Below are positions 24,010-50,619 of a stretch of DNA of 64,000 nucleotides, piece after piece. This stretch comes from Roseimicrobium gellanilyticum (lineage in GTDB: Bacteria; Verrucomicrobiota; Verrucomicrobiia; Verrucomicrobiales; Verrucomicrobiaceae): positions 404,881 through 468,880 of the forward strand of contig NZ_QNRR01000002.1 of assembly GCF_003315205.1 (NCBI RefSeq), given 5' to 3'. A model generated the notes under the pieces. The model searched no databases. It was not told where the DNA came from and saw nothing but the letters and a program-made list of their open reading frames with translations. The first letter of the stretch is position 1. The number at the start of each line of letters is the position of its first letter. A program made the translations under genes and the position numbers.

Positions 24010-26310
24010 TTATGTGGGCGATACCACGGTCTTGCCTGATGGGTCCCACTCCACGCCCAGCGCAAGGTTCTGTTCCTGCGGATTGGCCACCAGCCACTCC
24101 GCCACAGGAGTGGTGACGAGTTCTTCGATGCGGCGCTGCAAGGGGCGAGCTCCGTACACCGGGTCGAAGCCGCGCTCACTGACCACACGAATCATGGTAT
24201 CACTGATGCGCAGCGAGATGCTGCGGTCACGCAACCCCTCGCGTTCTTCGAGGCTGGCGAGTTCGCGCCGGGCGATCTGTTCCACGGCCTCCTTGTTGAG
24301 CGGATCAAAGGTTACCACCTGATCCAAGCGGTTGAAGAATTCGGGACGGAAGAACTGGGTGACGGCTGCACTGTCCACTCGTGCGCCCTCTGTGAGGGCA
24401 TCCGGTGTGAAGCCGGGCGCGCCACCTTTGCGTGTGCCCAGATTGGACGTCATGATGATGACGGTGCTGCGGAACCATGTGGTGCGTCCCAGGGCATCTG
24501 TGAGCCTCCCTTCCTCGAAGACATTCATCAGCGTGTCGAAGACCTCCGGGGATGCTTTCTCCACCTCGTCGAAGAGAAGCACGCCGAACGGATTCTGCCG
24601 CATGCGCTTCACCAGGTCGGAAGGCTCGCCGAAGGGATCTCCCAGCAGGCGGCGCGCGGCGTCGTAGCCGCTGTACTCGCTCATGTCGAGTCTCACGAGA
24701 CGGTCGGTGGCCTTGCGATTGGGAAAGAGGTAGTCGCCGAGCAGCTTCGCGAGCTGTGTCTTGCCGGTCCCGGTGGGGCCGGTGAAAAGGAGCACGGCGA
24801 GCGGGCGATCCGGATCGTTCAGACCTGCCTTGAATTTCAAGACCGCCCGGCACACGGCATCTACCGCATGCGGTTGCGAGACAAGGCGCTCGCTGAACCA
24901 GCCCTGCAGCGCGGTAGGATTGAGCAGGCGGCTTTCGTCGAGCAGTTCCTCGGGTAAGCCCGTGGCTGCGGCGAAGCCACGCCGCACGTCGGTGAGGTGG
25001 ACTACTCCTGCGCCGTGCTCCTGCGCCTTCGCCGCGGCATCGTTCATGTAGGTGAGCGGTGTGGCGGGAAACCCCGCATAGGGAAGGAAACGACGGCAAA
25101 GACGTCCTGCCTCACTCGCCGCTTCCTGGACGAACTCCAGGCGATGCTTCGCGCTGAGAGTCACGGCAGCGTGTTGCAGGATCGATTTCTCACTCTCTGC
25201 CGACAGCGCATCCAGTCTGACCATGCTGAAGGCATCGAGGAAGGATGGTAGAGTACGCTCACAGGCTTCTACCTCCTCTGGTGTGGCCTCCACCACCACG
25301 CGTAGCTCCTGGAATCGGAGATAAGGCACGAGAAAAGCGGCCAGACTGCTCTCAGGCGTGGTGCCGCCCAGGCGCATGAGTTCCTGCAGGCTCTCAATAC
25401 ACAGAACTCCATTCACATCCCGGATCTCGCGGATGACGTCCTCCAGTCTTTCCTGCCACTGGCCCAGCCAGCGCATACCGGCGATGATACGCGCGCCACT
25501 GGTAATCCAGAACCGATGCTCCTTCGCGCTGTCCTCCTCTTCTGTGGCCGTGAAGCGCGAGAGACGGCGGATGGCCTCCAGTAGTACTGCGCTCTTGCCA
25601 CAACCGGACTTGCCCACGAGCAGGATGTTCCCGGTCTTCTGTGCCAGGCGGTTGGCAAGGTCATTGATGGGCAGTTCCCGCTCCAGGGGCCATGTACGCA
25701 CAGTTCGCCGCAGCGCGACTGCATCAACCGGATCGGCGATCTGGACGAGGGAATCCGCTTCCATGCGAAATGCCCTCTCTTTTCGACGTCGGGGGCTGAA
25801 TGAGATGGCATCCAACACACAAGGGCCGGGCGGGAGGAAGCGTAGCAGTTGAGCTGGTGTGAGCCCTTTCAGAGCTTGTCTCGCGTAGTGCAGCGCCATC
25901 TCATCGACACGTTCGCCACTGCTCACATCGAATTCGACATCGAGTCCCGGAATGAGCGCGCAAATCAGACCGCTTTCGCGTTTGCCCACCACGTAGGGAA
26001 GTCTCAGCGTCACCGGTTCGGCGCAGGGCACAACGCGCCTTCTGCCCGTGGGTCCGGGAGGGGTGGTGTATTCCGGCACGGCCTGAATTTTCACCGTGCG
26101 CAGGGTGGGCTCCAGAAAGTCCGGCTCCGGCAACGCGTCATTCTCGCTGCCGTCTACGCCACGCAGATAGTCCTTCAGCTCATGCAGCACGGCTCCACGC
26201 GAGGGGCCGCTTGCAGTTCCCGAGCTGGAGAGTTCATCCAGAAGGCGGCCGCTCCACAGGTCTTCGCGAGCCTGCCAGAGGACGAGGGGGTATCGATAGG
26301 TGCGCGGCAT
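24010..26310 (-). CDS. ClpB-like double-AAA+ ATPase A (766 aa)
   Basis: Third gene of the AAA+ operon. Residues about 1-215 are an unrecognised N-terminal domain, not Clp-N. Ring 1 (D1) has Walker A GKSGCGKS (233-240), but Walker B reads VLCIES (302-307) instead of hhhhDE, and no Arg finger is seen. Ring 2 (D2) is canonical ClpB: Walker A GPTGTGKT (511-518), Walker B LLFDE (Asp581, Glu582), sensor 1 TSN, Arg finger Arg661 in PEFFNRLD, and sensor 2 GAR (720-722). There is no middle-domain coiled coil. Probably an unfoldase or remodeller powered by D2. The ATG at 26310 follows the stop of the upstream gene by one base; an in-frame start at 26361 is less likely. Confidence 0.85.
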   Translation of the reverse strand: MPRTYRYPLVLWQAREDLWSGRLLDELSSSGTASGPSRGAVLHELKDYLRGVDGSENDALPEPDFLEPTLRTVKIQAVPEYTTPPGPTGRRRVVPCAEPVTLRLPYVVGKRESGLICALIPGLDVEFDVSSGERVDEMALHYARQALKGLTPAQLLRFLPPGPCVLDAISFSPRRRKERAFRMEADSLVQIADPVDAVALRRTVRTWPLERELPINDLANRLAQKTGNILLVGKSGCGKSAVLLEAIRRLSRFTATEEEDSAKEHRFWITSGARIIAGMRWLGQWQERLEDVIREIRDVNGVLCIESLQELMRLGGTTPESSLAAFLVPYLRFQELRVVVEATPEEVEACERTLPSFLDAFSMVRLDALSAESEKSILQHAAVTLSAKHRLEFVQEAASEAGRLCRRFLPYAGFPATPLTYMNDAAAKAQEHGAGVVHLTDVRRGFAAATGLPEELLDESRLLNPTALQGWFSERLVSQPHAVDAVCRAVLKFKAGLNDPDRPLAVLLFTGPTGTGKTQLAKLLGDYLFPNRKATDRLVRLDMSEYSGYDAARRLLGDPFGEPSDLVKRMRQNPFGVLLFDEVEKASPEVFDTLMNVFEEGRLTDALGRTTWFRSTVIIMTSNLGTRKGGAPGFTPDALTEGARVDSAAVTQFFRPEFFNRLDQVVTFDPLNKEAVEQIARRELASLEEREGLRDRSISLRISDTMIRVVSERGFDPVYGARPLQRRIEELVTTPVAEWLVANPQEQNLALGVEWDPSGKTVVSPT

Positions 26311-26311
26311 G

Positions 26312-29300
26312 TCAGACGGGATGATGATTGGGTGTATCAGGAATGGATGCCGGCTGGCCATAGCAGACTGCCATGGCCATGTCCCCTGTTTCCTGATTGG
26401 CGCCGGAGATCAGCAGTCCGGTACGCAGATCCAGCAGCCAGGCTCTGAAGTACAACCAGGTGATCTGATTTTCAGAGGACTCCGGAGGTGTCTCGCCGGT
26501 GCGCCAGGCCTTCACGGTGGTCAATTCGGATTGGGCCGTCCAACACGAGGCCTTCACACCGGTGGTCGCAGCCACCAGACCTTCCAGACCGGGGCCATCC
26601 ACAATGCGAATGGCTTTTTTGTTGGAAACGAGAACCACTTCGGCCAAGGCTGCTCCGCACCATTCGAGCGACGCGACCTGGTTCTGCGGCCAGGCTTCGT
26701 CATCTTCTGTGACTTCCTCAATGTAAGCAAAGTTGTCGATGCCGATGGTCCAGGAACTCGTGTGCGCCATGGACTCGTGACAGACGGAGATCAGGTGGCG
26801 AGCCCTCCAGAGCAAGCGCAGCAGGCCAGCGTGGATCGCGTCCAAGGGCACTGCCTGATCCAATATCTCGGTGATGGCATGGTCAGCGAAGCGTTGCGAG
26901 ATTAAGCGCTGGAGGAGATGCTCCACCACTTCGCGAGGCAGCACATGCAGCTTGTCCTTGGCGCGGACTGGCTCACCGGACTTTGCGCGTGACGTGGCAG
27001 CACGCTGGCGGGCGCGGTTCTCGCGTTCAAGTGTGTCCTCCAGCCGCTCGAGACCTTTTCGTATCACGGAGCATTCGTCACGGAGGCGGAAGTACCAGGC
27101 GCGTCGTCGTGAGATGGTCCCGTCCTCTTCTTGATCAAACTTCCAACCATCGAGGCGTTCCTCGGCTTCGGTAATCAAGTCCAAGGATTCATCGAGAAGA
27201 TCCAGCATCTCATCAACGGTGATGGCGGCGGAAATGGTGAAGAGAAGGGGAGTCTGCTCCTGCGCCCTCAGGTCGAATGATAACGCTCCATCGATACCCA
27301 TGGTCACCCTGGCCTTCAGCGCCTCCCCTGAGCCCACGGAAGCCATACGCGCAGCCAGCGGCTCGACCAGGAGTGTCTCCACGGCGCGACGTAGTGACCG
27401 GGCACCGTACGCTGTTTGGTGGCCCTTTTCTGCCAGGAACTGGATGGCATCGTCTTCCAGGGACACATCCACCTGCCGATCGGACAGGCCCTGCCGAGTC
27501 ATGGCTCGCTGCGCCATGACTTGCGCCAGCTTCTCGATATCTTCCCGGCGAAGTTCGTGGAAGGGTACAATGCGATCCAGACGGTTGAAAAACTCAGGGC
27601 GGAAGAATTTCTCCGCAGCCTGTCGGTAGGCCTCGGCATCTTCCGTGGTGGCATGGCCAAAGCCGAGGCGTTGCCTGGACTGGCGGGCCCCGATGTTTGA
27701 GGTGAGGATGATGATGCAGTTGCAGAAGTCTGTGGTCTGTCCCTGTGCATCCGTGAGACGCCCTTCACCCAGCACTTGGAGCAGCAGATCGAAAACGTCG
27801 GGATGAGCCTTTTCCACCTCGTCGAAGAGCAGCAGTGTGAAGGGCTGGCGGCGTACGCGGGAGGTGAGCAGACCGCCGCGCCCCGGGCCGCCAATGAGGC
27901 GGATGGCCGCGTCATCACCGGTGTATTCGTTCAGGTCGAATCGAACCATGCGATCCTCACTCTGGAAGACTGTCTTCGCCAGCATCTTGGCGCATTCTGT
28001 CTTGCCCACACCGGTGGGGCCCAGGAAGAGCAGCGAACCCAGCGGGCGAAGAGGATCCTGCACTTCGGCTGACGCCATGAGGATGATGTCCATCATGGCC
28101 TCGACGGCGGCTGTCTGGCCCATGATGTTTCCAGAGAATCGCCAGCGGAGATCCTCCCGGCCGAAGGATTCGCCATCAAGCGATTCGCCCTTGAGCAACT
28201 CGAGACTGATCCCATGCCGGTCGGCGAACCACTCCAGAACTTGAGAGGCCGTGGTGGCTTTGTCCTGTTGGAAGCTGTTCGTTGCGGACTTGTACGTATT
28301 CGCCAGTGCCTGGAGCATCTCCACCGCTTTTCCCGGGAATGCCTTTGCCCGGCCAAATCGCTGCTGGAGGCGGATGACTTCTGGGAGCACCTCCGGCGAG
28401 AAATTGCACTCAGGTGGCAGCTCCTGCATGGTGCGTACCAGGATGCGCAGGGTGGCGTCATCGCCCATCTCCCGGACATGAATGACCTGGAACTGGCTCG
28501 CGAACGATCGATCGATTTCCCGCAATCTCCCCCAAGCCTCCGGAGTGGCCTCAGCCAGCACCGGAATGGGTTCGTGTTCCTGTCGGGCCTTGAGCACATG
28601 GCCGAGTGTGAGGTCGCTTCCTGAGGAACGCCCGGCTTCGAAGAGGCCGAGCAGATCATCGAGCACCAGGATATGCCGGTCCTTGCGAATACTGCTGAGC
28701 ATCGCCGTCCAGCGTTCTTCCCACTGGCCGAGGTAGGACATGCCACTGATCACCCGCTGTGGAGACACCAGCCAGTACTGGCCGCGGCGGCCCGTGCTGG
28801 CGGCTTCCAGTGATTTGCGCACGCATTCATGAATGATGGCAGTCTTCCCGGCTTTTGGCCGGCCTACCAGCACGACCATGGGTGTCCGCACACTGATGCG
28901 GCGGAAGCTCGCCCAAAGCTGTGCCACCTCCGCTTCCCGGAGCAGTGCACGCTGCAGATCCTGGGGATAAAGCCGATCAAGGCACCGGCCCACCTTGTGC
29001 AGTTCACGCTCCCCATCCATGGGCGTGTCATCAATGTATGACGCGTGCCTGGATCCCGGAATCGGAAGGCGCTGGTTTCCCGTGAGCGCCACGGGAAGGT
29101 GAACGACGTGCGGCTGGCCCCCGGAGAACCAATCACTCGGATCAAAAGCGTCCTCCGCCTCCTTCTCCAATTGCCGGAAGTGAGCAGTCAGGATCCGTGT
29201 GGCCACATCGCGCAGTTGGGTGCCGCTGGGCCACTCGAAGCTGAGGCCTCCTCTAGACAAATGCACGAGTCTTCGCCCGGCGTTTTCAAACACCACGGCA

Positions 29301-29599
29301 AAGAACGCACCGTCGACCGAGCGCTTCTTGAGCTCGATACGAAGTTTCAGCAGGTGACTCGTAGTCGGAGGACAGAAGCTCCATGGGAGCAGGTCACGAT
29401 GGTCGGGCGACACGGTCGTCTCCAGCAACAGGCGACCAAGGCGTCCGCCAAGTTGTGCCAGGGCGCGGTCCTCCCGCAGGTCCATTTCATCCTTGAACGC
29501 GCCAGCGGCAGCAAAGACGGGCCGGGCACGAAAACGCGTGATGCCGTGAGCATCGCGATAGTGGTCCACGCATACGGGAATGGTGAGGGTGAACTTCAT
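26312..29599 (-). CDS. ClpB-like double-AAA+ ATPase B with C-terminal extension (1095 aa)
   Basis: Middle gene of the AAA+ operon. The N domain (about 1-225) is unlike Clp-N. D1 has Walker A GRPKAGKT (246-253), Walker B LVLDD (311-315, second acid Asp rather than Glu), and the ClpB-like GQWEERW loop. The D1 Arg-finger position reads SQFQVIHV, so the finger is absent. D2 is complete: GPTGVGKT (527-534), LLFDE (Asp593, Glu594), PEFFNRLD (Arg673), GARSL (sensor 2 Arg734). Residues 750-1095 form an extra region with a charged coiled coil (about 795-870) and a beta-rich end. The ATG overlaps the stop of gene C by ATGA. Confidence 0.85.
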   Translation of the reverse strand: MKFTLTIPVCVDHYRDAHGITRFRARPVFAAAGAFKDEMDLREDRALAQLGGRLGRLLLETTVSPDHRDLLPWSFCPPTTSHLLKLRIELKKRSVDGAFFAVVFENAGRRLVHLSRGGLSFEWPSGTQLRDVATRILTAHFRQLEKEAEDAFDPSDWFSGGQPHVVHLPVALTGNQRLPIPGSRHASYIDDTPMDGERELHKVGRCLDRLYPQDLQRALLREAEVAQLWASFRRISVRTPMVVLVGRPKAGKTAIIHECVRKSLEAASTGRRGQYWLVSPQRVISGMSYLGQWEERWTAMLSSIRKDRHILVLDDLLGLFEAGRSSGSDLTLGHVLKARQEHEPIPVLAEATPEAWGRLREIDRSFASQFQVIHVREMGDDATLRILVRTMQELPPECNFSPEVLPEVIRLQQRFGRAKAFPGKAVEMLQALANTYKSATNSFQQDKATTASQVLEWFADRHGISLELLKGESLDGESFGREDLRWRFSGNIMGQTAAVEAMMDIILMASAEVQDPLRPLGSLLFLGPTGVGKTECAKMLAKTVFQSEDRMVRFDLNEYTGDDAAIRLIGGPGRGGLLTSRVRRQPFTLLLFDEVEKAHPDVFDLLLQVLGEGRLTDAQGQTTDFCNCIIILTSNIGARQSRQRLGFGHATTEDAEAYRQAAEKFFRPEFFNRLDRIVPFHELRREDIEKLAQVMAQRAMTRQGLSDRQVDVSLEDDAIQFLAEKGHQTAYGARSLRRAVETLLVEPLAARMASVGSGEALKARVTMGIDGALSFDLRAQEQTPLLFTISAAITVDEMLDLLDESLDLITEAEERLDGWKFDQEEDGTISRRRAWYFRLRDECSVIRKGLERLEDTLERENRARQRAATSRAKSGEPVRAKDKLHVLPREVVEHLLQRLISQRFADHAITEILDQAVPLDAIHAGLLRLLWRARHLISVCHESMAHTSSWTIGIDNFAYIEEVTEDDEAWPQNQVASLEWCGAALAEVVLVSNKKAIRIVDGPGLEGLVAATTGVKASCWTAQSELTTVKAWRTGETPPESSENQITWLYFRAWLLDLRTGLLISGANQETGDMAMAVCYGQPASIPDTPNHHPV

Positions 29600-32500
29600 G
29601 CCAGGGCCTCCCCGAGTGTGATGGCGCGCAAGGACTGCAGCAGCCAGTCCTCCTGAAACCGGCCATCCTTGCGCGCGTTTTCCGAGCCCTCACGGACGAT
29701 CTGCTTCACGGGATCATACTGGCGGCAGATGGTGCCAGACTCCAGATCGGGCAGACCCACCAATTCCTGCAGTGGCACCGTAAGCTGGCCGAGGTGCTGC
29801 ATGTTCTCCCCCGGCACCCGCACTTCGAGGCGGCAAGCCCAGTCGACCGGGTTCTGCCTGTTCTTGGTCTGGGTGTCAGCCTTCTTTGCAGCGGCTTCCT
29901 CCTCCTTGGACTTGCGCCGTGATTTGGAGAGGTGAAGACCATCCTCATGCTTCAGATGCATGTTGGCGTGGGCCCCTTCAATCCAGAGGGCGATGGCGCT
30001 TACGGATTCCACATCCTTGGTCCACAGCGTCGCCTGTTCTTTCACGGAGGGAGGTGAGTCCGCGAGGACATGGAGTCCATCCTCGGTCAGCAATCGCGCC
30101 GGCGTCTTTTTGTAGAAGAGACCGACACGCACAGATGCCTTGAGTGAGGCAGCGACATCATGATACACCCGTGCGAAGTCGAAGAGTTCGGAGCCGGGCT
30201 GTCCCCGCATAAAGAAGATCAATCGCTTCGGCGGAGGCTGCCAGAGCGCATAAGCTTCCAGCACCAGGTCCTCCCAGCCGGTCATGGTCAGAGGTTCGCG
30301 GGCGCGGAGGATCTCCAGTTGGTCCTGATGCAGAGCGACAATGAGCGCTTCTTCTCTCGCAAATTGTGTGTTGGCTTCGTTCTGCATCTGCGTGAGACAG
30401 GTCTTCAGTCGGTCCAGTTCCGGGTCATGACCCATCCACGTATTCTTGCTGCGCCTGCTGGCGCGGTCCTTCATGCGTTGCGCCCGCAGCTTCTGTTCCA
30501 AGAGCCGCACCTTGCCCCGAAGGCCGTTGGTCATGGTTGAGATCAGCAGACGTTGGTATGCCCGACGGAGGCGGGCTGCATCAAAGGTACGCGACTGGAG
30601 ATCCGAGCGCGAAAAGTGCGCGGCCTCTGACGTGACTTCGCGTGTACTCCAGTCCGGGCGGATGACTTCGATGGCAGGTCGCCCGTCCGGCCCGAGTTCG
30701 GCCTGTATCGAGTAGGGGCCATGGGTGTGCATCACTTTGTCGGAAAGAGGAGCGAGCAATTCCTCCGCAATACGACGTTTCAGCGGTCGCGCACCATAGC
30801 GGGGATCGTAGCCCTTCGCGGCCAGATGCCGCAGCAAAGGTTCGCTCACCTCCAGACGCAGCTTGCGGCTGGCAAAACCGGAGCGGAGAGACACGGCATC
30901 AACCTCACGACGCGTCAGCGAAAGCACCACTTCCTCCGAGAGCGGTCGGTAGGGCACGATGCGGTCAATGCGGTTGAACATTTCAGGGCGCAGCGCCTTC
31001 TGCACTGCGGAGGTGAAGTGCTCCACGGCATCCTGGAGTCCGCTGCCACTGACGTCGAAGCCCAATCGCCCACGTGAGTATTCCTGCGCACCGAGGTTGG
31101 AGGTCATGATGACCACACAATTGCTGAAGTCCGCCGTGCGTCCGGCTGCGTCGGTGAGTCTTGCTTCGCCAAGTACTTGGAGCAACAGATCAAACACGGC
31201 CGCATCGGCCTTCTCAAACTCATCCAGCAGCAGCACGTTGAATGGCTGCTCACGCACGGCGGCGGTAAGGATGCCCTCCTTGCCGCCGTGGCTGCCATTC
31301 ACCAGGCGTTGCGCGCTCCAGGGCTGGCCGTATTCGCTCATGTCCAGACGGATCATGCGCTCAGGACTCTGGAAGAGAAACTCGGCGAGGGCCTTCGCCA
31401 TCTCTGTCTTGCCCGTGCCGGTGGGTCCGGTGAAAAGCAGTGATGCCAGCGGTCTGCCGGGGCGGGTGAGTCCCGCCTTCAACTGCGCAATCACACTGGT
31501 GATGACTTCCACGGCGGCGTCCTGCCCCTGCACCCGGCGCTGAAACCAGGCGCGTGTAGCCGCGAGGTCGAGTGGCTGTTGTGGATCCAGCAGATGGCGT
31601 GGCATGCCTGTTTCACTGGAGAAGGCGGCGAACACCTCTGCCTCTTCAATGAGCGTGTTCTTCTCCGCACCTTCGTGAAGGCGCTGCATGAAGCGAAGCG
31701 GTGCTCCGGGGAAGGCGGCGTAACCCATGAAGCGATGATGCAGGGCAGCGATGCGTTGCAAGGCCTCGCGCGTGAAGCGTCCACGATCACGCCCCATTTT
31801 GATGGAGGTGGAGAGCAGGATCGCCTGTTCCGCTTCGCGTGAGGGCTCCTCTACTTTCATGATGCGGAAAGCCTCACTGAGACGTGGGTCATTTTTCTCA
31901 ATCACGGCCATCTGCTCAGGTGTGCACTCCACGATCACCTGGATGTCCCGGCGTATGAGATAGGGGCGCAGGAAACTCGCAATGCTTTCCGAGCCTGCCG
32001 AACTCTGGCCCACGTTCATCAGCTCAAAGAGGTTTCCCAGGAAGAAGATCACCGGTCTTTGTTTCGCAGACTCCACCAGATCCCGGCACCGCTTTTGCCA
32101 CATGCCAAAGCCGCATGCTCCCGCGATCAAACGCGAACCGCTGCTGCGGTAGAAGGCTTTCTCACCAAGCTTATGGTCACCCCTGCGCAGCACCAGCTCC
32201 TGCACGAGGGCCGTCTTGCCCACGCCGCCGGGGCCCACCAGCAGAATGCTGGGTTTGTCCGGGAGCGAGAGCAGACGCGCAAGGTGCGCGAGCGTGGTCT
32301 GCACCTCATACGCCTGCGCCAGGAAGGGCTCCTCCATGCGCGTGCAAAGCTGCTCTACCACATCTGTGGCCTTTTCGGTGGCGTTCAGGCGCTTCCAGCG
32401 ATCACGTGCGGATTCGAGCGACGGCGTCCAGGGAATGGATTGCAACTTGAAATCGCCGCGCTGCAGCAGGGCCATCTGCAGGTGGGAGGTATTCCATCCG

Positions 32501-32934
32501 TCACGCTTGATGGCGGAGAGCGCATGCTCCTTGAGCATGTCGGGGAGGGCATTCCGACTTGGCGCGATCACAGAGATCGACAGAGCGGGAAGCACCGCGA
32601 TCATCTGGCCGCTCTGCTCCCACACCAGCGCATCGAGCCGGATGTCCATCGCCTCCTTCCATGCTTCCGTGCGTTTGCCTGGTATCACCGAGAGTTCCAC
32701 GGTGGTCATCTCGGGCTCGCCGAGCACCACCCGTCTGCTGATCTCATCAAGGGGCAGTGCTTTGAGCAATTCTTCACCGACATCAAGCAAAGCGAAACGC
32801 GCGCGCCGCTCGCGATGCGCCAGCGTGGACAGCCCTGGAAATAGCAGGAATTCGATGAACAGCTGCGACGCGCCCTCCGCACTGTCTTCCAGGGTGCGGG
32901 TGACAAGATGCAGTGTGGCAGAGACTTCAGGCAT
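29596..32934 (-). CDS. ClpB-like double-AAA+ ATPase C with release-factor-like tail (1112 aa)
   Basis: First AAA+ gene of the operon. The N domain (about 1-190) is unrecognised. D1 has Walker A GPGGVGKT (234-241), but Walker B is lost (IFFLG at 296-300), as is the Arg finger. D2 is intact: GPTGTGKT (503-510), LLLDE (Asp571, Glu572), PEMFNRID (Arg655), GARPL (sensor 2 Arg716). After D2 a coiled coil (about 805-875) precedes a domain in which IEGAHANMHLKHEDGLHLS (985-1003) resembles the G-x-x-A-x-x-x-L-K-x-E-x-G-V-H-R block of peptide-chain release factors. No GGQ motif follows. The release-factor link is an eye-level match. Confidence 0.83.
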   Translation of the reverse strand: MPEVSATLHLVTRTLEDSAEGASQLFIEFLLFPGLSTLAHRERRARFALLDVGEELLKALPLDEISRRVVLGEPEMTTVELSVIPGKRTEAWKEAMDIRLDALVWEQSGQMIAVLPALSISVIAPSRNALPDMLKEHALSAIKRDGWNTSHLQMALLQRGDFKLQSIPWTPSLESARDRWKRLNATEKATDVVEQLCTRMEEPFLAQAYEVQTTLAHLARLLSLPDKPSILLVGPGGVGKTALVQELVLRRGDHKLGEKAFYRSSGSRLIAGACGFGMWQKRCRDLVESAKQRPVIFFLGNLFELMNVGQSSAGSESIASFLRPYLIRRDIQVIVECTPEQMAVIEKNDPRLSEAFRIMKVEEPSREAEQAILLSTSIKMGRDRGRFTREALQRIAALHHRFMGYAAFPGAPLRFMQRLHEGAEKNTLIEEAEVFAAFSSETGMPRHLLDPQQPLDLAATRAWFQRRVQGQDAAVEVITSVIAQLKAGLTRPGRPLASLLFTGPTGTGKTEMAKALAEFLFQSPERMIRLDMSEYGQPWSAQRLVNGSHGGKEGILTAAVREQPFNVLLLDEFEKADAAVFDLLLQVLGEARLTDAAGRTADFSNCVVIMTSNLGAQEYSRGRLGFDVSGSGLQDAVEHFTSAVQKALRPEMFNRIDRIVPYRPLSEEVVLSLTRREVDAVSLRSGFASRKLRLEVSEPLLRHLAAKGYDPRYGARPLKRRIAEELLAPLSDKVMHTHGPYSIQAELGPDGRPAIEVIRPDWSTREVTSEAAHFSRSDLQSRTFDAARLRRAYQRLLISTMTNGLRGKVRLLEQKLRAQRMKDRASRRSKNTWMGHDPELDRLKTCLTQMQNEANTQFAREEALIVALHQDQLEILRAREPLTMTGWEDLVLEAYALWQPPPKRLIFFMRGQPGSELFDFARVYHDVAASLKASVRVGLFYKKTPARLLTEDGLHVLADSPPSVKEQATLWTKDVESVSAIALWIEGAHANMHLKHEDGLHLSKSRRKSKEEEAAAKKADTQTKNRQNPVDWACRLEVRVPGENMQHLGQLTVPLQELVGLPDLESGTICRQYDPVKQIVREGSENARKDGRFQEDWLLQSLRAITLGEALA

Positions 32935-48210: not shown

Positions 48211-48287
48211 GCTGCGATCCAGTCTCAATGAACGTGAGACTCAGACGCAATTGCGAATACCCTTCGCTTATTGAGACTGAGTCTTGG
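48211..48287. promoter_or_regulatory. cluster of Fur-like operator sites upstream of siderophore receptor
   Basis: Three related elements are seen: GTGAGACTCAGACGCAA (48234-48250), TTGAGACTGAGTCTTGG (48271-48287), and on the other strand TTGAGACTGGATCGCAG (48212-48228). The first and last also form a perfect inverted repeat, AGTCTCA/TGAGACT, with a 7-nt spacer (48221-48241). The first differs by 2 of 17 bases from a site before tonB (61657-61673). A TTGACT hexamer at 48202 could be the -35 box. Position before a TonB-dependent receptor suggests an iron repressor such as Fur. Confidence 0.55.
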
Positions 48288-48318
48288 CACCAATACTCCA
48301 CTAGACTCAAACCAACAC

Positions 48319-50619
48319 ATGAAGAGACGCAGCTCCCGCAGCAAGTCCTCCGTTCGCAGCCATGCGACCGAGGGCCTTGCCGTTACTACGACGCTCCTTT
48401 GCGCTGCCGGCAATCTCGCCGCGCAGACCGCTCCCGCTCCCGCAGCTCCCGCTGCCAGCACCACGCTTCCCCCGGTGATCGTGGAAGGCTCGCAGGACAA
48501 GGTTTACAAGCCCGAGCGTGTCGAGTCCCCCAAGATTCAGGGACCCCTTCGCGACGTTCCCCAGACCATCACCGTCATCCCGGAAGCGGTCATCAAGGAA
48601 CAGAACGCGACCTCTCTCCGCGACGTGCTTCGCAACGTGCCTGGTATCTCCATCCAGGCGGGTGAAGGTGGCGGCGGTCCTGCTGGTGACAACCTTTCCA
48701 TCCGTGGCTTCAACGCCAAGACCGACATCTTCGTGGACAACGTCCGCGACTTCGGTGGCTACACCCGTGACCCCTTCAACTTTGAGCAGGTGGAAGTCTT
48801 CAAGGGACCTTCCTCCTCGAACGCTGGCCGTGGATCCACCGGTGGTTCCATCAACCTCGTCTCCAAGTCCGCGCAGCTGCAGCCCTTCTACGCAGCAGAC
48901 GTGGGCGGCGGCACGGATAACTACTTCCGCGCCACGCTGGACATCAACCAGCCTCTCTGGACCAACCAGACCCCTGGCACGCCTGCTCCCGCTCCCGTGT
49001 CCGGCAAGGGTGTGGTGAACGTCTCCGGCAAGGGTGCGAAGTCCGTGGCTCCTGTGGCTCCTGGCCCGGAAACCGGCGCTGCGCTGCGCCTGAATGGCCT
49101 CTACCATCACGCAGACATCCCCGGCCGTGACTACGTGGAAGATGAACGCTGGGGCGTCGCTGGCTCCCTCGTCTTCGGTCTTGGTACGGACACCCGTCTT
49201 ACCCTGAACTATTTCCACCTCGAGCAGGACAACCAGCCTGACTACGGCATCCCGTGGGTGCCAGACACTGTCACCAGCCTGAGCAAGTATGCGAACAAGG
49301 CCGCTCCCGTGCCGTTCCACAACTACTACGGCCTGACGGACCGCGACTACGAAGAAATCAGCACGGATATCGGCACCGCCATCTTCGAGCATGACTTCTC
49401 GGAGACGCTCAAGTTCCGCAGCCTGTTCCGCGTGGGCCGCACGACTCGTGACTCCGTGATCTCCGCGCCGCGCTTCGCCGGCACGGGCACCACGCTGAAC
49501 CATCAGTTCCAATCCCGCGACCAGGAAGACACCATCTACTCGAACCAGACCGACATCGTCGCGGACTTCGAGACGGGTGCCCTCAGGCACACCCTGACCG
49601 CCGGCTTCGAGCTGACGCGTGAAGAATCCGAGAACCGCGCTCGCGCCACGGACACCGTGCCGCAGTCCGATCTCTTCCACCCGAACCCGACCCAGAACTG
49701 GACCGGCCGCATTTTCCACACGGGCGCCTACTCGGCTGCTGACGTGGACTCCGCTGCCCTCTACCTGTTCGACAAAGTCGCGATCGGTGACCACTGGGAA
49801 ATCAACGGCGGTCTCCGCTGGGACTACCTCGAAACCGAATTCACTGACGGCCATGCTGATGGCGGTTCGGACACCTACAATCGTGATGACAGCCTGCTGA
49901 GCTGGCGCGCCGCCCTGGTTTACAAGCCAGTGGAAATCGGCAGCATCTACTTCGCGTATGGCACCTCGTTCAACCCGGCCACCGAACTGCTCACCAGCAG
50001 TTCCGCCTCGGCCGTCGTGAACCAGTTCAACACCGATCCGGAAGAAAACCGCAGCTACGAGCTGGGCACCAAGTGGGACCTTCTCGATGAGAAGCTCTCC
50101 ATCACGGCGTCCCTTTTCCGCACGGAAAAGACCAATGCCCGTACCGCGGATCCCGCTGACCCCACCGCCTTTGAACTCTCGGGCGAGCAGGTCGTGCAGG
50201 GCTTCGAAATCGGTCTTGCCGGTCAGATCACGGACAACTGGCGCGTCTTCGCTGGCTACACCTATCTCGACAGCGAGATCGAAGCCTCGAAGAACCCGCT
50301 GGAAGTTGGCAACAACGTGCCCAACACCCCTGAGAACTCCTTCAGCCTCTGGACGGTCTATGACCTGCCTTACGGCTTCCAGATCGGTGGGGGCGCACAG
50401 TACGTGGGCAGCCGCTACAACAACAACCTGAACCAGCGTGAAGCTCCGGATTACTGGACCTTCGACGCGATGCTGGGCTACCAGGTGAACGAAAACATCG
50501 CCATCCGTCTGAACGTGTACAACCTCGCCGACGAGGACTACATCGATCGCGTGGGTGGTGGTCACTTCGTCCCCGGACCTGGTCGTTCGGCGGTGATTTC
50601 GCTCAACGTGAAGTTCTAA
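48319..50619 (+). CDS. TonB-dependent siderophore receptor (Fiu-like)
   Basis: A protein of 766 residues with an N-terminal basic signal region (MKRRSSRSKSSVRSHATEGL) and signal cleavage near NLAAQ. The plug domain has VPQTITVIPEAVIKEQ, LRDVLRNVPGISIQAG, LSIRGFNAKTDIFVDNVRD and VEVFKGPSSSNAGRG. A beta-barrel follows and ends in an aromatic-terminated strand (ISLNVKF), as needed for outer-membrane insertion. Catecholate-type receptors of this group import ferric siderophores using TonB-ExbB-ExbD energy. Operon: 15 bp before the PiuC-type hydroxylase gene. Putative iron operators lie upstream. Confidence 0.93.
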   Translation: MKRRSSRSKSSVRSHATEGLAVTTTLLCAAGNLAAQTAPAPAAPAASTTLPPVIVEGSQDKVYKPERVESPKIQGPLRDVPQTITVIPEAVIKEQNATSLRDVLRNVPGISIQAGEGGGGPAGDNLSIRGFNAKTDIFVDNVRDFGGYTRDPFNFEQVEVFKGPSSSNAGRGSTGGSINLVSKSAQLQPFYAADVGGGTDNYFRATLDINQPLWTNQTPGTPAPAPVSGKGVVNVSGKGAKSVAPVAPGPETGAALRLNGLYHHADIPGRDYVEDERWGVAGSLVFGLGTDTRLTLNYFHLEQDNQPDYGIPWVPDTVTSLSKYANKAAPVPFHNYYGLTDRDYEEISTDIGTAIFEHDFSETLKFRSLFRVGRTTRDSVISAPRFAGTGTTLNHQFQSRDQEDTIYSNQTDIVADFETGALRHTLTAGFELTREESENRARATDTVPQSDLFHPNPTQNWTGRIFHTGAYSAADVDSAALYLFDKVAIGDHWEINGGLRWDYLETEFTDGHADGGSDTYNRDDSLLSWRAALVYKPVEIGSIYFAYGTSFNPATELLTSSSASAVVNQFNTDPEENRSYELGTKWDLLDEKLSITASLFRTEKTNARTADPADPTAFELSGEQVVQGFEIGLAGQITDNWRVFAGYTYLDSEIEASKNPLEVGNNVPNTPENSFSLWTVYDLPYGFQIGGGAQYVGSRYNNNLNQREAPDYWTFDAMLGYQVNENIAIRLNVYNLADEDYIDRVGGGHFVPGPGRSAVISLNVKF

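Follow-up and report, generated by a model that had tools for sequence, protein, structure and literature searches.

Among the described double-ring AAA+ (ATPases associated with diverse cellular activities) systems, two are closest to the proteins considered here: the bacterial Clp proteins ClpA, ClpB and ClpC, and Pex1/Pex6, a type II AAA heterohexamer on a different AAA+ branch (classic AAA). For ClpB, the available portion of one study gives Walker B residues E279/E678 and Arg fingers R331/R332 and R756 (PMC6593972); for Pex1/Pex6, the available portion of another describes an ATP-bound, catalytically inactive D1 ring and an active D2 ring (PMC10518020). Here we analyse three genes, A, B and C, in a stretch of 64,000 nucleotides from Roseimicrobium gellanilyticum (contig NZ_QNRR01000002.1, positions 404,881 to 468,880 of the forward strand; hereafter the window). 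Each gene encodes two AAA+ modules of the ClpA/ClpC (HSP100) type; the sequences suggest that the first module (ring 1) binds nucleotide and is probably inactive in hydrolysis. The second (ring 2) retains its catalytic residues and has lost its GYVG pore loop. The three large genes lie on the minus strand in the order C, B, A:

29596..32934, minus: gene C, 1112 amino acids (aa); new N-domain, putatively dead AAA+ ring 1, predicted active AAA+ ring 2, release-factor-like tail
26312..29599, minus: gene B, 1095 aa; architecture as gene C
24010..26310, minus: gene A, 766 aa; N-domain, ring 1, ring 2, no tail

The longest open reading frame of gene A begins at 26361; because orthologues start at residue 18 of that frame, we set the gene as 24010-26310.

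The second AAA+ module matches Pfam AAA_2 and ClpB_D2-small, and the ClpA and ClpB models of NCBIfam span both modules at scores far below the equivalog cut-offs (at best 319 bits compared with 1232.1 for ClpB, and 310.8 compared with 993.15 for ClpA). AlphaFold models (mean predicted local distance difference test score 83.1 for A and 79.5 for B) recover the Clp fold: residues 188-765 of A superimpose on ClpA 6w20 (Z 34.1, root-mean-square deviation (rmsd) 9.5 over 534 residues), A also matches ClpC (Z 33.7, rmsd 9.8 over 552 residues), and residues 195-780 of B superimpose on ClpC 9gi1 (Z 28.9, rmsd 12.0 over 563 residues). As the rmsd is large across two flexibly linked modules, the matches support no more than the fold; searching by fold with the B model returned Clp chains only, which speaks to the AAA+ modules and not to the B tail. 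A Clp N-domain was matched neither in 10 N-terminal segments scanned alone, for which the Pfam scan gave no family of note, nor among the 16 families matched by full-length B. A HicB-like strand-helix repeat in the N-domains was a mere impression and was dropped. A, B and C also lack a middle-domain insertion. The genome encodes ClpP as well as normal ClpC and ClpB; elsewhere in it, at G000:C1:1144140-1144619, lies another short AAA_2 protein (331 aa frame).

Active sites of the two rings

Residue counts were taken over 37 A, 37 B and 38 C proteins (n = 112) plus two each of the more distant lineages X1, X2 and X3 (118 in total), and were compared with 16 reference Clps. Between Walker B and the Arg finger, ring 1 aligns nearly gap-free with ClpB and ClpC of the same genome. 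Its Walker A Lys is present in 118/118 proteins. The catalytic Walker B Glu, by contrast, is found in 0/118 family members compared with 16/16 references, all of which carry D, E, R and R at the Walker B pair and the two finger positions. In the window the alignment puts E-S at the Walker B pair of A, D-D at that of B and G-N at that of C; a preliminary description made from the sequence alone had the first two right and read LG in C, one residue out of register. At the catalytic Glu position, A proteins carry N (21), S (14) or D (2); B proteins D (35) or N (2); C proteins N (26), S (7) or Q (2), with G, A and P once each; X1 carries N and D, X2 D in both proteins, and X3 S and G. The first Walker B position is mostly E in A (28/37), D in B (32/37) and G in C (36/38), and these paralog-specific states are common to lineages in different phyla.

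The motifs DAFSMV (A), SQFQVI (B) and EAFRIM (C) align with the double-arginine finger of ClpB/ClpC, and the two finger positions read D-A, S-Q and E-A, respectively. The first finger Arg occurs in 0/112 A, B and C proteins and the second in 2/112 (the A proteins of genomes G177 and G179), compared with 16/16 references for each; both X1 proteins retain the first and both X2 proteins the second. Chance does not explain the differences from the references in the Glu and the finger. The model of A places these positions normally: the predicted strand 301-305 stops right at E306-S307, and D359-A360 end the helix ahead of strand 361-365, as is usual for an AAA+ module. The pore-loop aromatic of ring 1 is kept in A (37/37) and B (31/37), and lies one residue later in C (Phe/Tyr in 33/38).

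32212..32235, minus: C ring-1 Walker A GPGGVGKT (234-241), intact
32029..32052, minus: C ring-1 Walker B strand VIFFLGNL (295-302), with G300-N301 in place of the catalytic pair
31921..31929, minus: C E336-C-T338, invariant Glu and retained sensor-1 Thr
31870..31875, minus: C ring-1 Arg-finger positions E354-A355
28841..28864, minus: B ring-1 Walker A GRPKAGKT (246-253), intact
28655..28660, minus: B ring-1 Walker B pair D314-D315
28508..28510, minus: B R364, possible displaced Arg finger
28493..28498, minus: B ring-1 Arg-finger positions S368-Q369
25591..25614, minus: A ring-1 Walker A GKSGCGKS (233-240), intact
25390..25395, minus: A ring-1 Walker B pair E306-S307, after predicted strand 301-305
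25282..25290, minus: A E341-A-T343, invariant Glu and sensor-1 Thr
25231..25236, minus: A ring-1 Arg-finger positions D359-A360

Thus the earlier proposals that ring 1 keeps Walker A and loses the Arg finger, and that it may bind ATP without hydrolysis, agree with the family-wide counts. We also checked, by alignment and predicted secondary structure, whether canonical catalytic residues lie elsewhere in this module; the A positions proved normal, and two possible substitutes for the lost residues came to light. The sensor-1 Thr of ring 1 is mostly retained, and two residues N-terminal of it stands a Glu in 118/118 proteins, where 16/16 references have Ala. In addition, Arg364 of B, five residues ahead of the second finger position, is invariant (37/37), and Pro occupies the aligned position in A (37/37) and C (37/38). 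With its D-D Walker B pair and this displaced conserved Arg, B appears to be the least degraded ring-1 copy, in line with the earlier suggestion that B may be the only partly active partner.

Ring 2 presents the reverse pattern. Its Walker A Lys, Walker B Asp and Glu, and sensor-2 Arg are each present in 118/118 proteins, the sensor-1 Asn in 117/118, and the finger Arg in 117/118 (one gap); the window's proteins retain Walker A, a D-E Walker B, an Asn-Arg finger and a Gly-Ala-Arg sensor 2, in keeping with the preliminary description. That account overlooked three features: loss of the ring-2 GYVG, a retained Gly-Phe loop and the tails of B and C. The substrate-gripping GYVG pore loop is found in 0/118 proteins compared with 16/16 references, and the stretch that would hold it measures 12-15 residues (21 in one A) compared with 18. 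The ring dead in catalysis by sequence thus retains pore aromatics, whereas the catalysis-competent ring lacks its pore loop. In ClpB the pore tyrosines are Y251 and Y653 (PMC6593972, available portion). Since this loop is lost from ring 2, an ordinary threading motor cannot be assumed. The Gly-Phe loop stands at the position where ClpC docks ClpP (Gly in 117/118 and Phe in 109/118 at the aligned positions).

31405..31428, minus: C ring-2 Walker A GPTGTGKT (503-510)
31264..31308, minus: C ring-2 pore-loop region (543-557), without GYVG, shortened
31219..31224, minus: C ring-2 Walker B D571-E572
31057..31065, minus: C L624-G-F626, position of the ClpP-docking loop of ClpC
27998..28021, minus: B ring-2 Walker A GPTGVGKT (527-534)
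27818..27823, minus: B ring-2 Walker B D593-E594
27659..27667, minus: B L645-G-F647, ClpP-docking-loop position
24757..24780, minus: A ring-2 Walker A GPTGTGKT (511-518)
24565..24570, minus: A ring-2 Walker B D581-E582
24409..24417, minus: A P632-G-F634, ClpP-docking-loop position

Common origin and distribution

A tree of ring 2 (79 rows, pore loop excluded) separates all family members from ClpB/ClpC (100/100) and resolves one clade for each paralog (A 100/96, B 99/86 and C 100/97). Loss of the ring-1 Glu maps to one change on the tree, so the decay "in parallel" of the preliminary description gives way to common ancestry, and an independent decay of the entire active site in each of the three paralogs is rejected for the Glu. 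A single ancestral event best accounts for the Glu loss, and the Walker B states of the paralogs were probably fixed early. Presence of either finger Arg requires four changes, compatible with loss or regain; as X1 has the first Arg and X2 the second, loss of the finger may have been stepwise. X2, with an Arg at the old finger position, is the nearest relative of B; X1 joins C in one tree (93/87) and not in a smaller one, and a grouping of X3 with A was not rejected (p 0.437).

The set occurs in 9/68 genomes of the window's taxonomic family. Across the order, the first half of A is matched in 21/386 sampled genomes, 19 of which carry all three genes; of the other two, G100 has A alone, interrupted by two stops, and G213 has C alone, on a contig of 3.4 kb. 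At L090:4075-5979 in G100, stop codons split gene A into two open frames, a pseudogene or a sequencing error. A lies on a separate contig from C-B in G076, G091, G179 and G195. A phylum-wide sample yielded 3/387 genomes, all within the window's family.

Further loci came from a contig scan by generic ring-2 patterns and are those among the matches listed, not a census. They include a metagenome-assembled genome of Pirellulaceae (L099), with the set in the order C-B-A, and L100, whose small lineage is recorded as Deltaproteobacteria NP119. In the phylum of L099, 24/392 genomes have an A-type match, and in 15 of the 18 loci taken from it A, B and C stand together, the B frame being broken in one; L235 is interrupted by a contig end. 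In the phylum group of L100, 5/5 genomes match, the weakest matches scoring like ordinary Clps. The triple is therefore present in Planctomycetes and in a "Deltaproteobacteria" lineage as well, usually as a set.

Operon neighbours are common only to near relatives. In six related planctomycete genomes (L229:951-4214 and five further loci), a large gene upstream of the triple encodes a phosphatase-like regulator, by eye of the SpoIIE/RsbU type. Downstream of the triple on one planctomycete contig (L099:16681-21322) are genes that by eye resemble type I components of CRISPR (clustered regularly interspaced short palindromic repeats) systems, not seen as neighbours elsewhere. Assignment to a defence system was rejected: the PADLOC matches (DolB, PDC-M37B) are generic ring-2 matches only, DolB matches C only over 132-289 of 375, short of the whole profile, and searches of 72,556 plasmid records and 50,697 phage records, at the limits applied, gave no match. 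Elsewhere in the window two open frames overlap on opposite strands, 48271-50619 (+; 782 aa) and 48307-50565 (-; 752 aa).

Release-factor-like tails and the proposed machine

B and C extend roughly 300-370 residues past ring 2, and A has no such tail.

29890..30540, minus: C tail (about 799-1015), coiled coil and PCRF-like domain of release factors
26345..27217, minus: B tail (about 795-1085), helical hairpin and release-factor-like domain

A profile of 35 C tails, searched against all PDB sequences, found release factor 2 in 21 of the 22 best rows (E 3.3e-4 to 0.019; the exception, at row 10, is MITSUBA-1), with matches in its coiled-coil and PCRF regions; lower rows hold unrelated coiled coils and release factor 1 at 0.35. 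For a profile of 34 B tails, the best seven rows are all release factor 2 (best E 0.0033). In hhalign comparisons with 21 cellular release factors from relatives, the C tail scored E 1e-7 over 177 columns, compared with 0.38 to 0.94 for the reversed C tail and five shuffles; X1 scored 8.4e-10 and X3 0.0012, and the B and C tails match each other at 6.8e-7. The C tail aligns in order with release factor 2, a class I release factor, across the coiled coil and the PCRF region, followed weakly by a distal R-x-Y region. By profile match, then, the B and C tails resemble release factor 2; they differ from it in that GGQ is not conserved (5/75 tails), in their fusion to AAA+ modules and in a very low identity. 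In single-sequence Pfam searches the X1 and X3 tails match PCRF below the cut-off. The clearest link to release factors is a single-gene relative in genome G071 (L270:5321-9211; 1296 aa), whose tail passes the Pfam PCRF cut-off (28.2 bits); its apparently dead ring 1 has a D-R Walker B, and it lacks GYVG, yet its ring-2 loop is not shortened. The same protein has an unrelated N-terminal region with, by eye, a likely membrane helix.

We propose that A, B and C would be ancient, separately specialised subunits of one ClpA/ClpC-type double-ring AAA+ machine. Ring 1 would bind ATP without hydrolysing it, or hydrolyse it at most with help from B, and would serve as the scaffold that keeps the subunits in order, a role suggested by conserved Walker A, lost catalysis and the Pex1/Pex6 precedent; ring 2 would be the ATP-burning motor that drives movement. 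The tails of B and C would carry the machine to ribosomes, where it would remodel or extract something, and the hydrophobic-Gly-Phe loops may allow ring 2 to dock ClpP or another partner. A mixed A/B/C oligomer is reasonably probable, because the three genes co-occur and keep distinct conserved states. The ribosome as target, an idea drawn from the tails alone, is put forward tentatively, and docking of ClpP is unlikely. Taken whole, the reading of a hetero-oligomeric ATPase with scaffold and motor rings, aimed at ribosomes, falls slightly short of an even chance.

Several observations weigh against this proposal. The B tail matches the release factors weakly by hhalign (E 0.0011); single-sequence Pfam searches found no PCRF in the window's own B and C tails and, at E up to 1, PCRF in only 2/35 C tails and 0/34 B tails; and, with the catalytic GGQ not conserved, no peptide release is expected. 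Genes neighbouring the triple include no translation link common across lineages. The single-gene version in G071 suggests that the family can do without a mixed ring, and planctomycete loci L236 (A on another contig) and L240 hold only C and only A, respectively. The near-sensor-1 Glu and B Arg364 could restore some hydrolysis to ring 1, and loss of GYVG argues against ordinary threading into ClpP.

It is conceivable, though unlikely, that the genes encode three ClpC-like chaperones that form separate homohexamers, ring 1 being dead in each, and act on different clients, the tails serving as client adaptors only. Such an arrangement would suit G071, where no second family member was found in a genome that is 83% complete, and the genomes in which A lies apart from C-B; it fits poorly with the three genes being together in 19/21 genomes and with different Walker B states maintained over long times. 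We consider it improbable that ring 1 remains a weak ATPase in which the near-sensor-1 Glu replaces the Walker B Glu and B Arg364 replaces the neighbour's finger: the invariance of both residues, with Ala and Pro at the corresponding positions in references and in A and C, and the Arg at the old finger position of X2 are as expected for relocated catalysts, but A and C have for the most part lost the Walker B Asp as well, and the finger would be supplied by B alone. Little probability likewise attaches to an ordinary ClpP-coupled unfoldase variant whose ring 2 docks ClpP and whose ring-1 pore loops grip the chain passively, as allowed by the Gly-Phe loop, the ring-1 aromatics of A and C and the presence of ClpP with normal ClpC and ClpB in the genome, since GYVG is gone from every ring 2 and pore loop 2 Tyr653 is essential for disaggregation by ClpB (PMC6593972, available portion).

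A, B and C share with ClpC and ClpA the fold of both AAA+ modules, the ring-2 catalytic residues and the Gly-Phe loop; they differ in that a Clp N-domain was not found, in loss of the ring-1 Walker B Glu and Arg finger and of the ring-2 GYVG, in lacking the middle-domain insertion, in the B and C tails and in comprising three paralogs. With Pex1/Pex6 they share, by sequence, a degenerate ATP-binding ring 1, an active ring 2 and several paralogs; Pex1/Pex6, however, is eukaryotic, keeps its ring-2 pore loops and has no release-factor tail. Vms1-Cdc48, of eukaryotic ribosome quality control, also combines a release-factor-type protein with an AAA+ ATPase, by analogy only: these are separate proteins, the release-factor fold is unrelated, and Cdc48 lies on a different AAA+ branch. 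Our searches of open-access PMC papers brought up no description of such proteins; the available portion of a survey of release-factor evolution mentions AAA+ proteins only as the Vms1 partner Cdc48 (PMC6514570), and those of PMC7159879 and PMC8195603 contain nothing on such proteins.

In conclusion, the triple may represent a hitherto undescribed double-ring AAA+ machine of bacteria, built of three subunits, that catalytically silent tails resembling release factor 2 deliver to ribosomes and in which an ATP-locked scaffold ring is joined to a motor ring without the usual gripping loop; on this reading, which we regard as possible and on balance doubtful, it would be a counterpart in logic to Pex1/Pex6 and Vms1-Cdc48. 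A bacterial triple with a conserved dead ring 1 would be a second, independent case of the scaffold/motor split in double-ring ATPases and, if the tails do bind ribosomes, would bring a double-ring machine driven by ATP into the repertoire of ribosome rescue or quality control in bacteria.

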